Shown: in pieces, positions 9,801 through 58,068 of the stretch
Layout of the letters: each line of letters opens with the position of its first letter
Numbering within the stretch: position 1 is the stretch's first letter
DNA from: Paramacrobiotus metropolitanus
Taxonomy: Eukaryota; Tardigrada; Eutardigrada; Parachela; Macrobiotidae
DNA: 64,000 nucleotides
Direction of reading: 5' to 3'
Assembly (NCBI RefSeq): GCF_019649055.1
Contig: NW_026570222.1
Span: forward strand, 1,488,001 to 1,552,000
The notes under the pieces: generated by a model
Seen by the model: the letters and a program-made list of their open reading frames with translations, nothing else
The model's database searches: none
What the model was told of the DNA's origin: nothing
Translations under genes and position numbers: made by a program

Positions 9801-12800
9801 TCATTCAGCTGCGTTAAGGAAGTTCGGCATCTCTGCACGCACGCGGGATCGGTTGATGTAGATCATGCTACGTCGGTCATCCTGCCAAATATGGAGACCG
9901 GCAGAAATTATACCGTCATTGTGGCGGGCAAGACCACTCGTAGTGTTGGGCAATCGTCCAAAAAAGTAGTTTTCCGAATGGCACCGGAAGAAGTTCCTAA
10001 AGACGTACATGTGGTCAACGTACTGAAAGATTCCATCACAATTCGATGGAAACCTCCGTTAGTCGTCATTCCTTCCAGGTGAACTTTTTTTAGTATACTC
10101 GTCTTTGTTAATTTTTTTTATTGTTGTGGTGTTATTATTTATATGTGAACTGGCGCTGTTGATAGTTCTTGACCAAGTGTTGCATGTGAAATACTTACCC
10201 TCGATGCTCGTGACCTTTAGCTCATAAAGTTTTTGAACCGAAACGTTTTGCCCTATATGTGTAACCCTTGCTTTTTCTTTTTCGTAATTATTATTATGAT
10301 TATTTGTAGATACATGATATCTTGGCGTGGCCGGAAAGTATTTTTGGACCAAGACGGCAGTACTCAGATTCGTCAGATGCCCAAAGGCTCCAATGAGACT
10401 GCTAACACGGAAATAACACTGAACAATCTGCGACCGCACACCACCTATTACATTGATTTAACTGCCATTCCCCTGGATGGCAGAGAGCCGCCTGCCGTGC
10501 GACTGGAAGTGAAAACAGCAATCGATGGTAATTACTATCCTGAGACGATAGTTTAATCATTGGGAAGAACTTAAGCCTGTCATTTATTCTGCCCACAGTG
10601 CCACCCATGCTGTTCCCGCCTAATTTTACCACTGTTACGAAGAAGGAAATGATTCGAATCCAGCTGAAGCGGGCAACGGAAGAATTCGGCCCGATTAAGC
10701 ATTATTTGGTAGTGGTTGTTCCCAGTCAGTTGGCGATCAAGCATCCGGATAATTACACTCTTGCTGAGGTATTCGTTTGATTACAGTAAATACTTGTAGT
10801 GGACACTGAATACATTTGTTCGGACACTTTATGTTTGTTCCTTGACAGTTAACGCGGCATGAATTGGCGAGTGGACAACAAACACATCGTACTGTAAAGC
10901 CATCCTTCCCATATATTGCTGCAAAGTTTAGTCGGGAAAATTTGCCGCACACGTTCGATGTTGGCGATGGGAACGTATATGAAACATATCTGAACCGGCA
11001 GATTGTCCCGGGCCAGCATTACAGGGTCTTTGTGCGGGCTTACGTGGACAGTCAGAACATCGTAAGTCCGCTGTGACATGTCATTGAGGATTTACGGAAA
11101 TGAAATCCATGAATTTGCTTTTCTACTATAATGCATGCCCTTGTAGTCTGAGCCACTGTACACCAGCAGCCCTTTTTCGGAGGACATCAGTACGGATAAA
11201 CGGGCAAAGCCGGAAATACCGGAAGCCACCCAGAAAGCTGCTCAGTTTCCATGGTGGATAATATTGGTTGCTGGATTTATCTTGGCTGTTATTATTGGTC
11301 TTATTATTTTATTCTTCGTGAAAAGGTACAACACACGTAGTTTGCTAATGCAAAATTTTAGGTTGGCGAGATTACCGATTAAACATTGATAGTCTTTCCA
11401 AAACAATTTTGTAACAACAAGATAAAAAAAATATCTTGATATCTATCCAAACGTACGAAAAGAGCTGTAAAATGAATATTGTCGTGGTTTAAGGAACAAG
11501 AAAACCAGAAAACCAATTCCGGAGCCGCACGTGAAGCCGCCCCAGCCCAGTCCCACATATGCCCAGAAGCCGACCACCAATGGCAATGGAGCCATCGGTA
11601 ACGGACACGGCGGTCATGCACTGCAAGTCAACACCAGCCCAGAAACAAAGGCTCTTCTCGGATCAACTTACCCAGAAGAGCCGGAACCGTCCCCCAACTC
11701 GACACTGCGGTTACGTGAAGTCGGGCGGGACAAGCGGGACTCCTATCCCAGTCCGCAACCCGGACGACATCCGGCCATTCCGATCGAAGATTTGGCCAAT
11801 TACATCAATAACCTCAAGGCCAATGATAATCTGAAATTTTCGCAAGAATACGAGGTATTGCTTACAGTAATCGTCGAATGTTTTTTTATGTAGCAACAAT
11901 ATTTGCAGTTATTATGCTGATATAAAGTACTATACAGTAGTGATAACTTTTATTCGACACCAGTCAGCTTACAGATCAGATGGGCTAGCACAGGTTTACA
12001 CTACTTAAAATGATCAGAATTTAAACATTGAAAAAACATCCAAAATCGTTAGTCCCATTAGTGATCTTGGGGCGTGCAGTCAGTGTACCCAAAACCGCAG
12101 CTGCATTTCCTCTGACTACTGCAAGGCTTAAGCGCTGCCTTAAAAAGGCCGTAGATCGTGGTTCTCCGGTAATTTCGCGGATCTTACGGCCGGCGAAACG
12201 GATGAGAAAAAAAAACTATACAGTAGTTGTAGTATTGTAACACGAATCGATAAATACTGTTCACTGAACCGCGCACCATGGAAGGTGCTAGCAAAAAGCT
12301 CAAGGTTTTATCAGAATTTGATTTGACAATTTCTTGTAGAGTGTGGAAACGAATCAGCAGTTCACCTGGGAAAACTCCAATCTGGAATACAATAAACCGA
12401 AAAATCGTTACGCCAACGTCGTGGCGTATGACCATTCGCGGGTCATTTTGAAGACGCTGGACGGTATTCCGGGCAGCGATTACATCAACGCCAATTTCTG
12501 TGATGGTTACCGGCATAAAAACATGTACATCGCCACTCAGGGTCCGCTTCCTGAAACCTTCGGGGATTTTTGGCGCATGGTCTGGGAGCAGAACTGCTTC
12601 ACCATCATCATGATGACGAAACTGGAAGAACGTGCTCGCATTAAATGTGATCAGTACTGGCCGTCCCGTGGTCACGAACAGTACGGCGTGATGCTGGTGA
12701 CCTTGGTGGATGTACAGGAAATGGCATTCTACTGCGTCCGCACGTTCCACCTGCAGCCCATGGGTCACATGGACCGGCGGGAAGTGCGGCAGTATCAGTT

Positions 12801-14436
12801 CACCGGGTGGCCGGACCACGGTGTCCCAGAGAGTCCAACGCAGTTTCTCATGTTTTTACGGCGCGTAAAAACCGGCAATCCACCGGAAGCCGGGCCGTTG
12901 GTGGTGCACTGTAGCGCCGGGGTGGGACGGACCGGGGCTTTTATTGTGATTGAAGCACAGCTGGATAGGCTGCAGAGCGAGCGGAGTGTTGATGTGTATG
13001 GCCACGTGACCTGCCTGCGGGAACAGAGGAACTATATGGTCCAGACAGAGGATCAGTATATTTTCATCTATGACGCCGTGTTGGAGGCCGTCGAGGCCGG
13101 CTTCACGGAAGTCAGGGCGGGGAATCTCCATCAGCGACTGCAGAAACTGATGCAGCCCGTGGGGGGACCGGAAAGCATTACGGCCATGGAATTGGAGTTT
13201 AGGAAGCTGGCACCGGTGAAAGCGGAAATGTCCAAGTTCGTTAGCGCCAATATGCCGGTGAATAAGCATAAGAACCGGCTGATTAATATCCTGCCCTATG
13301 AGAGTTCACGCGTCTGCTTGGAGCCCATCAGGAGTATTGATGGGTCGGATTACATCAACGCCAGCTATATTGATGTGAGTTGGAGTGGTGCTTTTATTCA
13401 GCAGAACTGGATTTTGAATGTGACTTTTTTTAACAGAGTTATCGGCAGCGCAGTGCATACATTGCCACTCAAGCGCCACTCAAGTCCACCGTCGATGATT
13501 TTTGGAGGATGATCTGGGAGCACAACTCCACGATTATTGTGATGCTAACCAAACTACGCGAACTAGGCCGAGTACGTTGTCAATAAGTGACTGGAAGTTA
13601 CATGCTTATAATAATATTTTCCGTACAGGAGAAATGTGAGCAGTATTGGCCGGTTGAGCGATCTCAACGGTACCAGTATTTTGTGGTGTATCCCGTGGCG
13701 GAGTACAGCATGCCGCAGTACATTCTGCGCGAATTTAAAGTAACAGACGCCCGAGATGGACAGTCGCGCACCGTCAGACAGTTCCAGTTTACCGACTGGC
13801 CGGAAGAGGGTGTGCCGAAGATTGGTGAGGTCTTTATCGATTTCTGCCATCAAGTGCACAAGACGAAGGAGCAATTCGGTCAGGAAGGACCCATTACCGT
13901 CCACTGCAGGTTGGTGAACAGAAGTAAAATTAAGTTCTTGACCTTTCGTTATGAGCTTTCAACATAGCGTTTGTTTATGTTGGAAAATTTTTTGAAAAAT
14001 TAGATAAAATCCGGTTAAGGCGATGGTGGTAACTGTGATAACCGTGATGTGGCAAATATTAATAAGAATTCAGGGAACAGAAAAAATTAGTAAGTATGAT
14101 TAGTTTGCTAACGAATTGTACTAACGATTGATATCTTTGCAGCACCGGTGTTGGTCGAACCGGGGCTTTTATTGCCTTAAGTGTTGTATTGGAGCGACTG
14201 CGTTATGAAGGCGTTATTGATATTTTTCAAGCGGTCAAACTTCTTCGAACGCAGCGACCGTCGATGGTGCAGACACTGGTAAGTTATATTTGATATCAAC
14301 GCATGATTTTTGTTTGTGATTCGTTAGTACCTCTTCACTGTGAGCATCGATTGTACCGTTGCAGGATCAGTATCAGTTTCTGTATTTTGCGGCCTTGGAA
14401 TATCTCAATTCTTTTGATGAATACAATAATTCCTAA
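3856..14436 (+). CDS. Lar: LAR-type (type IIa) receptor protein tyrosine phosphatase, 5' end missing
   Basis: This is a cell-surface receptor that dephosphorylates phosphotyrosine; family members act in axon guidance, synapse formation and cell adhesion. About 2,065 residues are visible. In order: three Ig domains (3856-5550), about nine FN3 domains (5600-11060), one membrane helix in the exon 11147-11325 ([20 protein letters not shown]) followed by basic residues, the conserved wedge segment ([10 protein letters not shown]), then phosphatase domains D1 (12340-13200) and D2 (13200-14430). D1 has WPDHGVPE and the P-loop [10 protein letters not shown], so it should be active. D2 has WPEEGVPK and [13 protein letters not shown] is usual for the inactive LAR D2, while Thr replaces the usual Ala. 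The order matches fly Lar. All 24 exons join in phase. The signal-peptide exon was not found. Confidence 0.97.
3856..14436 (+). other. Lar: Exon map of the LAR gene
   Basis: Exons inferred from splice sites with matching phase: 3856-4146, 4524-4706, 4794-4904, 5041-5166, 5396-5991, 6789-6909, 7117-7779, 8033-8050 (microexon), 8208-8449, 8584-8860, 8920-9012, 9077-9361, 9620-9729, 9798-10078, 10310-10527, 10599-10768, 10849-11061, 11147-11325, 11494-11854, 12340-13374, 13437-13571, 13629-13909, 14143-14278 and 14365-14436 (stop TAA). Donors at 4707 and 9362 read GTTCGT and the one at 13910 reads GTTGGT; the rest are close to GTAAGT or GTANNN. The 797-bp intron before 6789 and the 485-bp intron before 12340 hold no exon I can support. 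Confidence 0.85.
8033..8050 (+). other. Lar: Candidate 18-nt cassette microexon in LAR (linker before FN3-5)
   Basis: Eighteen bases are flanked by an acceptor (ctttgccag) and an optimal donor (GTAAGTAATG). The upstream exon ends in phase 1 at 7779 and the exon at 8208 accepts phase 1. Inclusion gives DES-GVPSKT-LPERPRKV and skipping gives [11 protein letters not shown], both open, because 18 is a multiple of three. The skipped form resembles the ordinary LAR linker between FN3 domains. Vertebrate LAR-family genes are known to splice mini-exons that tune ligand binding; equivalence to any of them is inference. Confidence 0.6.
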
Positions 14437-40867: not shown

Positions 40868-43800
40868 TTAGTCATCTTTATCTTTTTGCGGTGATAAATC
40901 AATCATTTTAAATAATTCCTCAGCGCTAACGCCGAGGACTTGCTGGAGGTCACAGACGAAGCGATAAACGTAGCGTTTACCATTGGTTTTGTGAATGATA
41001 TTCTTATCATAGTAGTAGCGTAATCCGCGGCTGAGTTTCTCGTAATTCATTTTTGGTTTATTCTTCCGGATGCCCCATCGGCGCGCCACTTCGTCCGGGT
41101 CCAGTAGTTTGAATTCCCATCCATCTCCTGTCCATGTGATAAAGGACTGGCAAAGCTTATCCGTAAGAAGCTCCAACAGAAACTGCCATAGCTGTATCGG
41201 CCCGCCTGTTAACGTAAAAATATTATAATATTAAAACATGCCTCATTGTCAGTAAGTCATTTCACCACTAGTACGAGTACTATTCTGAAGGATGTATTTC
41301 ACTGCCACCTGGCACAATGATACACTGCGTATGTAATATAATTATGCTGTGTTATACTACTTACCTGAACAGAGTCTTTGTGAAAAACGAAATTAATAAT
41401 AGTATCAAGGTGGAAAACAAACAGAGGCAGATTTCTTAGCAGCACTGCACTATAGCGTCCACTTTCATTAGTACACAATTTGCTTAAAATAAGCAAACCG
41501 CTTCCGCATATAAAGTTCACTCCAAATTATGTAAAAGTCTGTATGCTAGTTTCCGCAATTCGTGTTTTTTGTAGAAGTGTTTAAAAAGTTATTCTATTAT
41601 GCGACTCGCTCTTTCTCGGCGAAATTCTAAAGTTTTAAAAACCTTAAAAACTCTTTCGGGTAAAGATCGGTTCCGTTTGTTAAGACAAATCTCTACTTTA
41701 TCTTATAAAAGACTTATAGGAGCGGTGCAAGTTGCATTCCTACATACCGGACGCTTGCTGTAACGGCAGGAGTTCGGTTGGAGAACTAGGATTGAACGGA
41801 TGATAGGAAGGATGGATAATGGACGGAACAACAAGTTCAGGGTGGCGATTATGGCCATTCATTTCGATGACGGGATGAGTGGGAGGTATCGAGGGTGGAT
41901 AGTAGTCGGCAGGAGGGGATGGTGGATGATAGGTCACATCGGTCTGCCAATGGTAATCATCGTACGCCGACTCGATATTTCGTGGGACGGACGGTAAAGG
42001 ATTCCCATAGCTACCCGCTGAACTGGCTTGTATGGAGGTAGTATAATGCGAATGCGAAGTGCTCATAATCACCCGTTGCCGATCCGCTTCTGTATGCAAA
42101 AAAGGGTCACACTATAGGATCATGGGCATATGCATAGAATTACTGGCATATAAAAGCGCTACATATCTGTTTAACATACCTCTGCGAAGAAAATCCAGAT
42201 GTTCATAAAATATCTCACCGGCTCCGTGAATTATAAACTGGGAAAATTCGTCGCGGGTCATTGAGCTGAGTTCTTGGCCGGTTATCCGATAGGGATGAAA
42301 GCTAACTCCATCACCGTCCGGCACATGATACTCGCGCCGCACCCAGTTTAACCACTGTTCTACGTGTTCCTCGCGCCAATAATAGGGATCTGTAAAACGG
42401 TCGACTGTTTATGAAGCTGCGGAGTCCGAAAATCAAATTTTAAAAGCTTTAAATAAGGACTTTGAAAATCTAATCATTCTTCGCAAAATCTTTTTGCAAA
42501 TACCGTCACAGGTACGAAAAACTGTTTAATATTCTGATAAAACTGGGAGATGTAACCATCAAGCAATGGACGCGAATGGTACTCCGATGCGACAACTGCA
42601 AGTGAAACTTGTGCGCACGGACAAATATATTTTAATCAAGTGTTCCTCTCTTGTGATATACACATTTTTATTACGTAGCACCTGGGAGTAGTACTGCTAC
42701 CTATTTACGCACAATGCAAAGCTAGGACGTCAGTTGTTGTTACCTGTTGCCGATTACTATACCGGTAGTTGTTAGCATTTATGCATCCAGCTGATAAGCA
42801 ATAACAACAATACCATGGGGCACTGCGATTGTCAACACTGGCTGTACCTTTTGGTATATTTAGCCGGCATCGCTCCTTGTCGAATTGGCTAAAGCTGGCG
42901 TAAATCGCTTGATTCATTTTGCTTTTGGTAACCGGTGTAAGAGGTGGAACACTGCTTCCAGGTGTATCGCCTAAATCACAGTAACAATTATTAATGTTTC
43001 ATCAGTTTGCGTTTATCCATTCATTCGTATTCAGACCACAACTGCGCTGGTGTTTAAGTTCGTTATGAAAAAAATAATTGTAATGATGTGGGCGAGGTAA
43101 AGAGGTAGTTGTAGAACACGCAGTTAATCTTGTTTTCTTACGAATAAGTTTTATAACCTTTCGTATTGTATCGTCTCTGATTTACAGCTATGATCAGAAC
43201 TTTGTAAGTGATGATATTTAATCTTGTTATGGACACTTCGTGTCTCCAAGTGTCGAATTGGGCGTTCATACGGTCTTACAGGTAATTTATAATTACCGTT
43301 TGCAGAAGGGCGTATAAGCTTTTACACACTCAATGCTGATACGCAAAACACGAACAATTAAAGCCGCAGCTGTTGCACAACACAAGTACCTAAGCGAACT
43401 CATTTCTTGAGTAGCACATTCCCAGATACTTTATAACAGATTCTGTTACAATTAAGCTCTTTACTTAACAGATCTGTTCCTTTGAGTATTTGGGAACTGC
43501 CCTCGCTTACTCTAAGAATTTACGCGGTTTTGTCATGAAACGTTAACAACATAAGTACCAGCAATCCGGCACGAAATCGTATTAGAATTGGTTATTGCAT
43601 AATTATCATGCGCTTAATCTTTCAAATTCAAATGCCAAAGTAATAGCTGCTTAAACTTATTTAAACTAAAATCCACATTCCACACATAATTTTATGAACA
43701 AATCTGAAAATAGCATTTTCACTTGGCCAAAAGACTAATGGTGATTAATTATTGTTAACATGCGAACTAACATCAGAATCAGTGGTTATGATGTTAGTTC

Positions 43801-55506: not shown

Positions 55507-58068
55507 TTAAATTGCTCCTTGGAGGTCGAGCCCAAACGCTTCCTCCTCGTCACAGTGCGGAATCCATGCTCCTAACCCCGCATCCTGAACCGTTTTACGA
55601 AATCCACAAACAATCTCCCTGTAGCTCTCACTACTGCTTTTAGCCAAACCATAAATTACTGAATGTTCGTTCGATTGGAATCCAGCTGGTGGCGTCACAC
55701 CTTTATCTTTCATGAGAGCCACAACCTTCATAAACGATGCTCCAGCGTTACCTTTGCTTATCTCTGCTGTCGTCCCTGCCGCCGGCTGACCCATCGTGGT
55801 TTCCAGAAAAATTTCCCGCCCACCAGAACTTTCCGAATCGGTATGCCACACAAATCCTTTCAATGGAATGGTGTCTTTCAAACTGAAGCGTTCCTTTACA
55901 GGGGGACAGTGAATGATTTCAGGACATTTGGAAGACGCTGCAGTATCGTTCGGGAAAGTGCTCTGTAGGCGGCCGTAAAGTCCCTCAGCCATAATGGGCA
56001 AATCCATATCCTCTGCTACGGACACCGTCTGCAGAAAGATGGCACGACAGAAGCACGACGCCAGCGCTCCCTGTATACCCACAACCAATTTCTTCATCAG
56101 TTTATCCGAAGCTGACATGATGCGCAGTTTTTCGTGCCCATCAGTTATATCCCAAAACGAATGCAGACCAACGTCTTCGGGTACGGTGTGGACATTACCA
56201 GAAACGATTTCCCCGTCGATATAATGGAGTTTTTTGTCGGTAACCGCAGGCTCATTTTTGGCAAGCAGAGTACACGATCCCGAGGGATATCGTGAGAGAA
56301 ACAGGTGGAAACCAATGCCCGGCTTCAACACCAGCAGCCCGTTTTCGCCAGGTCCACTGAAGATTGTTTCCTCGTTTTTATAATACGCTGCAATCTGATC
56401 CAGCAGAATTTTCTTGACAGCTCGCAACACTAAAATTTCGGCTTGGCAATCTTTGATATTTCGGCCTCGCGGATTCAAGTGTTTTCGATAAATTATCGAC
56501 GAACCAGTAGCCAGTGCGACTGGGGTCATTTTACGGTCAGCAGACATACAGACAGCGGCCATGGTCGGCGGATGAATGTAATTACTCCAAACCGTTCCAG
56601 CGTGTTTCAGGGATATATCGCTCAATATTTGAATTACAGCGGAATAGATCTCACTTGCTAAGTGGCGCGGATCTTGAATGGTGGCGCTTTCCACCTGCAA
56701 GTCTGCTAAACGCAGACATAATCACACCAATACATATCAAAAATCGCATCGATTAAAGAAATAATTTGCAAAAGCTCTATGTAACGGCAGTCTCCAGCTG
56801 CTCCAAAAAAATTGCGCTGACTGTCCATAATCTTAAATTTTAAAAACTATTGTTTCGGCGCAAACACAACCGCGTCAGTTGGCGGCTCCTTTGGTGCAAA
56901 ATAAAAACATTGGCATTTAATAAAGGTTATAAAACAGAAGAAATTTTGATATACATACGAAATTAAAAATTCAACAGAAATGAGGAGTATAGATGCAAGA
57001 GCAGTTTACAATATTTGCACCCAACTTACCATGAGGCTCAATGGAGCGAGTCGTAATTCTTCGCCAAACCGCAGGAAGAACGTCCACAAGCCAATTGAGC
57101 GCTTCGCAGGCCACCATTTGCTTTGCAACCTTTTTACTATGGCTTCGCGCGAAGAAAGCCTCCTCAAAGAAATTCAGCTTCACTACAAAGCTTGAACTGC
57201 GCTTTCGTTGACGAAACACACTATCTTGATCCGATTCGAAGGGCTGGTGAGGATCCCAATCAACAAACTCATGCGGGAATTTCAAAGCATCTGCGATTCG
57301 CAGCACCAGTCCGATAGGATTTGTCATGGATTTCGGAGATTTTGCTTCGCCCAACAGCTGTTCTAATGCAGATAATTTTTCATCATTTAAAGAACTTAAC
57401 AGTTCCGATAAACGGGCCACCGTAAGTGGATTCGTTGGAACTGCCGGAGCGCGATACAGCAGCGTATTTTTTGCGCTTTCGTATTGGGGCAATTCTGGAG
57501 AATCCTTCTGGGCTGGCTGCAACGTCGCTTCTTCAACCGGTTCTTCCAGATTATCTTTAGTTTCAGATTTTATTACACCAACAGCATCCTCAGATGCAGA
57601 TGATGATGCTGGGCAGGTCGCTTCGGCCGTCTCGGATTTGGACAACGATAACAGTGCATCCACAGCTTTGCGTGCCGCACACTCCTTGGCCTGCTTTTTT
57701 GACCTGCCTTCGCCTTCATACACCACTCCGTCCAATTCCAAACGTATTCGAAAGTTGGCCAGGTGAGTGGGTCCTTCGGAAGTCGCTTCGGAAAAAGCTG
57801 CTGACAGTTGCATTTCATTTAGAATCGAGATGGGGTTCTTCTCGGGTGCGTATGCGCGGAGGAACTTCGCCACTATAGAAAGCGGTTCATCACTCTCGGT
57901 CTTGCGTTTTTTCGCTCTCGGTTTCGGGAGGTCTTCGGATGGTCCCCTTTTCAACGGCGCTTGGGCGCACACGCCTTGGTAGCCATCCTGCGGAGGATCA
58001 TCGAATGTGTCCACACTGAAATCCACCACGCTAACGTGTCCATCCGTTTGCATCGCTACAGACGCCAT
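55507..58068 (-). CDS. ADAR-family protein with two dsRBDs and an inactive deaminase domain
   Basis: Two exons, 57030-58068 and 55507-56705, join in phase to encode 745 residues. Two double-stranded RNA-binding domains are visible: residues about 78-145 (NPISILNEM through SKKQAKECAARKAVDALL) and about 251-327 (NPIGLVLRIADAL through HSKKVAKQMVACEALNWL). Residues about 350-745 match the ADAR deaminase domain throughout, including LRIMSASDKL, VVGIQGAL and AGLGAWI near the end. The zinc ligands are gone: HAE is QAE (codon at 56443-56445), PCGD is PSGS (56281-56283) and SCSDK is SASDK (56110-56112). It therefore should bind dsRNA but not deaminate adenosine. Worm ADR-1 and the ADAD proteins are deaminase-dead relatives. 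The start MASVAMQTDG is the first in-frame ATG. Confidence 0.93.

Follow-up and report, generated by a model that had tools for sequence, protein, structure and literature searches.

A zinc-ligand-deficient ADAR paralog in the tardigrade Paramacrobiotus metropolitanus, a candidate regulator of an intact ADAR in the same genome

We examined a 64,000-nucleotide stretch of the Paramacrobiotus metropolitanus genome (contig NW_026570222.1, positions 1,488,001 to 1,552,000; referred to here as the window, with positions counted from its first letter) and identified a two-exon ADAR-like gene on its minus strand (58068-55507). The encoded protein of 745 amino acids, referred to as the window protein, carries double-stranded RNA (dsRNA)-binding domains (dsRBDs) and a deaminase domain in which all three zinc ligands are replaced. 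An intact ADAR was found elsewhere in the same genome, on a contig denoted here by C50. Judging from the sequences, we give roughly even odds (about 0.5) to the reading that the window gene is a catalytically dead ADAR paralog which is kept as a dsRNA-binding tether or regulator of the C50 ADAR.

The window protein was aligned with human ADAR2 (hADAR2, 1zy7), C. elegans ADR-2 (8zen) and 9dp5. At the zinc ligands H394, C451 and C516 of hADAR2 it has Gln (codon CAA, 56443..56445, on the minus strand, as are all features of this gene), Ser (codon TCG, 56281..56283) and Ala (codon GCT, 56110..56112), respectively, while the Glu at the E396 proton shuttle is kept (codon GAA, 56437..56439). The His/Cys/Cys ligands of the active-ADAR zinc site are thus Q/S/A here, with the Glu retained. 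A first-pass annotation made from the letters of the window had proposed both the three replacements and the retained catalytic Glu, and the alignment and the codons agree with it. A base-calling error was considered as the source of the ligand losses and rejected, since the three codons differ from CAY, TGY and TGY by a minimum of 1+2+2 changes, and at least 5 nucleotide differences make such an error unlikely. The short loop after C451 was dropped as an argument; it carries no weight, since ADR-2 and 9dp5, both active, also have a shorter loop than hADAR2. From the ligand loss we infer that the window protein may be independent of zinc. The first-pass annotation overstated the matter, on the other hand, in presenting the ligand loss as exceptional, as every zinc-coordinating residue is reported to be mutated in cADR-1, and three of four in ADAD1/2 (PMC7360552). 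ADAR relatives that lack zinc ligands have been described before, namely ADR-1, ADAD1/2 and, in part, the squid ADAR/D-like protein.

Exon 1 (57030..58068) starts with an ATG at 58066-58068, encodes an N-terminus with a basic stretch and two dsRBD-like stretches, and is followed by a GT donor from 57029. Exon 2 (55507..56705) encodes the entire deaminase domain and ends with a TAA stop. The only intron (56706..57029; 324 bp, phase 1, GT-AG) was predicted from the sequence. When the exons are joined (2238 nt spliced), the single stop is the terminal one and no internal stop or frame break occurs across the 745 codons, as the first-pass annotation had stated. With a codon score trained on 1475 codons, exon 1 reached 0.174 bits per codon in the read frame, where none of the five others exceeded 0.117, and exon 2 reached 0.158, with the others at or below 0.094. 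For comparison, 1.1-kb pieces drawn at random from the window (n=300, genes included) gave best-frame scores with a 95th percentile of 0.096 and a maximum of 0.396. In neutral simulations of the coding sequence (n=1000 each, substitutions only), 42.5% of the runs were free of stops at 1% change, 1.3% at 5% and 0.1% at 10%. The open frame and the codon scores support a coding gene and not an old decay.

A search of the genome for a catalytically intact ADAR, which the first-pass annotation had suggested, was successful. With the PF02137 profile, at least 6 matches were obtained at three A_deamin loci (7 candidates were scored), namely the window gene, the ADAR on C50 and an ADAT1-like gene on a contig denoted by C4. 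The C50 ADAR is intact by sequence, with HAE, PCG and SCS motifs, its exon joins being predicted, and its best PDB match is hADAR2 (204 bits), followed by 9dp5 (142), hADAR1 (137) and ADR-2 (127). No second intact ADAR was found besides it in the genome with this profile, the counts being lower bounds. The window protein and the C50 ADAR are identical at 93 of 372 aligned sites, and a search of the genome with the whole window protein gave 5 matches, which fell on the window gene, on C50 and on a short fragment present in two copies. The C50 enzyme shows one dsRBD-like stretch, which scored 17.7 bits with Pfam (19.1 in another run), under the cut-off of 23; no second such stretch stood out in C50:566500-580000. 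The C4 locus was labelled ADAT1-like by its DSHAE motif, which we take to be typical of that family and which is not a family test. As ADAT1 is a tRNA deaminase without a dsRBD, an ADAT1 identity of the window protein was rejected, given the presence of its first dsRBD.

The C50 ADAR itself differs from hADAR2 at a position of interest, where Met is found in place of E488 (KIEAGMG) and E485 is kept, in the exon at 2316-2906 of locus L005. Both E485 and E488 were described as ultra-conserved in the collected non-nematode ADARs, and E488M as fixed in the motif-shifted nematodes (PMC9989829). Taken together with this pattern, Met488 makes a shift possible, and the editing motif of P. metropolitanus may thus be a shifted one.

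The deaminase domain of the window protein (55561..56517) matched Pfam PF02137 with 131.9 bits (E 4.9e-38) over profile positions 1-326 of 329, in line with the proposal of an ADAR relative with a full-length deaminase fold. With at least one dsRBD and A_deamin along its whole length, the protein belongs to the ADAR family. It showed near-equal scores (64-71 bits) to the solved ADARs 9dp5, ADR-2, hADAR2 and hADAR1, and its identity to hADAR2 is 83/349, compared with 137/365 for C50. We then considered a block of 179 columns common to hADAR2, C50, ADR-2 and 9dp5, the ADR-2 and 9dp5 sequences being partial. The window protein keeps 26 of the 47 columns that are invariant in these four active ADARs and is identical to hADAR2 at 24 of the 132 others (Fisher P 3e-6). 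When each active enzyme was left out in turn, it kept 47/53 (hADAR2), 47/64 (C50), 47/60 (ADR-2) and 47/55 (9dp5) of the columns invariant in the rest, while the window protein kept 27/53, 31/64, 28/60 and 28/55 of the same sets. The deaminase core is retained above background and below the level of an active enzyme. Seven of nine RNA-facing positions are changed (including K376S, R455T, E488N and G489V), with S486 and G487 kept; the list consists of hADAR2 positions 375, 376, 455, 486-489, 510 and 594, which we presume to be RNA-contacting or base-flipping. As to inositol hexakisphosphate (IP6), 7 of the 12 direct-contact residues given in Table 1 of PMC10278661 are kept (binomial P 0.011 against the overall identity of 83/349, for a set examined after the protein had been seen) and 10 of the 12 in C50. 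Retention of IP6 by the dead deaminase domain is our prediction from these residues.

The first-pass annotation had described two intact dsRBDs, which is true for the first. The canonical dsRBD1 (57643..57840), with a KKQAK motif, scored 40.4 bits with Pfam PF00035 (cut-off 23), and the closest solved chain in PDB is that of the hADAR2 dsRBDs (2l3j, E 9.8e-16). The second, dsRBD2 (57076..57324), with a KKVAK motif, is divergent; it had no Pfam match at E<=0.1, all 29 PDB sequences listed at this threshold had their best stretch elsewhere in the protein, and a home-made profile detected its second half only. This half scored 10.2 bits with a profile of four dsRBDs (shuffle maximum 3.7; n=1000, 496 scoring) and 17.8 bits when the C50 dsRBD was added to the profile (shuffle maximum 1.8; n=1000, 547 scoring). 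In BLASTP, the C50 dsRBD had no match in the dsRBD2 region. The KKxxK motif is kept in both dsRBDs; in ADR-1, mutation of this motif in dsRBD1 abolishes in vivo binding to known mRNA targets (PMC10870475). A canonical dsRBD1 together with a KKxxK motif in each dsRBD would also suit an editing-independent dsRNA sensor, or a factor of RNA interference or antiviral defence. We consider this role very improbable, as Pfam at E<=0.1 gave dsRBD models and A_deamin alone over the whole protein, and nothing seen ties it to such a pathway.

A role as tether or regulator of the C50 ADAR is our preferred reading because the layout of the pair resembles that of ADR-2 and ADR-1: a single weak dsRBD was seen in the active enzyme, and its dead paralog carries a strong dsRBD1 and a divergent dsRBD2. 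In the proposed mechanism, dsRBD1 of the dead paralog would hold dsRNA, while the divergent dsRBD2, possibly together with the dimerisation helix, of which W502, D503 and E509 are retained, would contact the C50 enzyme. The dead paralog could in this way tether its partner to particular RNAs, and might compete with it when present in excess. Its deaminase domain would serve as a scaffold without zinc, perhaps still able to bind IP6. As far as the predicted domains tell, what is novel is the pairing itself, of an intact enzyme with one weak dsRBD and a dead one with a strong dsRBD. A bolder version, in which tardigrades have an ADR-1/ADR-2-like pair whose active ADAR (one weak dsRBD, Met488) needs a zinc-free, IP6-stabilised dead paralog for its substrate choice, is tentative, and we would expect it to fail rather than to hold.

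Several observations weigh against a role as tether or regulator. First, 21 of the 47 ADAR-invariant columns are changed in the window protein, and in the leave-one-out sets it has 26, 33, 32 and 27 changes versus 6, 17, 13 and 8 in the active enzymes. Second, of the dimer interface residues named for ADAR2 in PMC7641318, it keeps 4 of 9 on the helix-donor side (W502, D503, E509 and E693) and 2 of 10 in the acceptor pocket (G452 and R590), compared with 7 of 9 and 6 of 10 in C50. Third, when its last 168 residues were searched with phmmer against PDB at E<=10, no ADAR was returned; the Pfam A_deamin profile nonetheless spans this part. Finally, the C50 dsRBD scored 11.5 bits with the home-made profile, near the shuffle maximum of 8.5 from a five-fold larger shuffled set, and since the C50 gene model is itself a prediction, exons with dsRBDs may have been missed. 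The changed invariant columns could also be those of a decaying gene, whose enzymatic role was lost recently and in which stops have not yet gathered. However, a protein that matches C50 at only a quarter of the aligned sites has neither a stop nor a frame break, and its core columns are preferentially kept; we therefore give decay almost no credence.

The partly kept interface bears on another explanation, a pure competitor or inhibitor, which would bind the substrates of ADARs by means of its dsRBDs or cap the active enzyme via its own dimerisation helix and so lower editing, as do human ADAR3 and the squid ADAR/D-like protein. In vitro, the squid protein inhibits sqADAR2 but has no such effect on sqADAR1, and ADAR2 is inhibited by hADAR3 (PMC10278661). 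D503 and W502, the mutations of which were the most harmful to the ADAR2 dimer (PMC7641318), are kept in the window protein and the acceptor pocket is mostly changed; the protein might thus be able to dock onto an active ADAR without accepting one in turn. On the other hand, the helix carries changes at T501, V505 and G508, and the interface counts involve few residues, picked post hoc. A helper would also be a better fit to the single weak dsRBD observed in the C50 enzyme. We regard pure inhibition as unlikely.

The window protein also has a small chance of being a germline RNA-binding protein of the ADAD type that leaves editing unaffected. ADADs, sister to ADAR1s, were reported from some protostomes and deuterostomes (PMC9989829), and both mouse mutants are sterile (PMC7360552). 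However, Adad1 was described with one N-terminal dsRNA-binding motif (dsRBM), whereas the window protein has two dsRBD-like stretches, and the main text of the P. metropolitanus sex-transcriptome paper (PMC11191345) mentions neither ADAR nor deaminase. The word 'ADAR' is likewise absent from the main text of another tardigrade paper (PMC5531438), and a literature search of a limited library gave no report on tardigrade ADARs among the titles listed. Relatives of the window protein were also sought by pattern; 53 matches in viral contigs and 6 in genome contigs were obtained, none of which was confirmed, and no sister sequence was found.

A stretch of 86 bases in exon 2 (56482-56567) has 83% identical copies at two places, L010 977-1061 and L011 1007-1091. 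The repeat that hosts them is 99.7% identical across 1790 bases between contigs C57 and C13. It may be a fragment of a gene that a mobile element has picked up. Upstream of the ADAR-like gene, the next one recognised on this strand encodes a GBP/atlastin-like GTPase, with two open frames matching PF02263 (60539-60850 and 61375-61776, minus). Elsewhere in the window, a protein-tyrosine phosphatase domain (12340-13509, plus strand, 317 bits) and an Ets domain (40871-41230, minus strand, 123 bits) were identified, and an Rfam scan of the 64 kb at gathering thresholds gave no match. A COX1 search of the assembly gave no match; the published assembly yielded COI (PMC8277472). The TPS family gave 7 matches at three places of the genome, on C67, C84 and C208; three TPS-TPP genes are reported for Paramacrobiotus sp. 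TYO (PMC8277472). The nematode TTR-52 and arthropod Chitin_bind_4 families were unmatched in the genome, which is no sign of absence, as the controls were unmatched too.

If tardigrades do have such an ADR-1/ADR-2-like pair, the dead-partner editing complex would predate nematodes or would have arisen twice. Finding this arrangement in another lineage would tell whether the worm pair is an oddity or a case of general editing control. P. metropolitanus was described as relatively easy to culture, which opens the dead and active ADAR pair to testing.

Among the known dead relatives, the squid sqADAR/D-like protein resembles the window protein in having two dsRBMs, an inactive deaminase and the identical C451S and C516A. 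As Cys is often replaced by Ser or Ala, this match counts for little. The squid protein keeps 9 of the 12 IP6 residues, against 7 here, and its RNA-contact residues are said to be missing. The two differ in that the squid protein keeps H394 and has Ala at E396 (E396A; PMC10278661), whereas the window protein has Gln at H394 and keeps E396; the squid gene has 11 exons, compared with two here, and squid has two active ADARs, compared with the one found here. ADAR3 (ADARB2) is similar in its two dsRBMs, its inactivity and its inhibition of ADAR2, but it retains H, C, C and E (PMC10278661). The vertebrate ADAD1 and ADAD2, compared by description, also combine a dsRBM with an inactive deaminase; if the four zinc-site residues counted in PMC7360552 include the Glu, the window protein would likewise lack three of four. 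They differ in being testis- or germline-expressed. A parallel in layout is nematode ADR-1, also compared by its published description, which has two dsRBDs and a dead deaminase with all zinc ligands changed. In the window protein H394, C451 and C516 are likewise changed; it differs in that E396 is kept and that, beside a clear dsRBD1, its dsRBD2 is divergent and detected in its second half alone. In C. elegans, ADR-2, with one dsRBD, binds 200-bp dsRNA at ~76 nM and ADR-1, with two, at 0.43 nM; dsRBD1 of ADR-1 binds RNA and its dsRBD2 binds ADR-2 (PMC6182170). As the active partner ADR-2 has a single low-affinity dsRBD, so the C50 ADAR shows one weak dsRBD next to a dead paralog with a canonical one.
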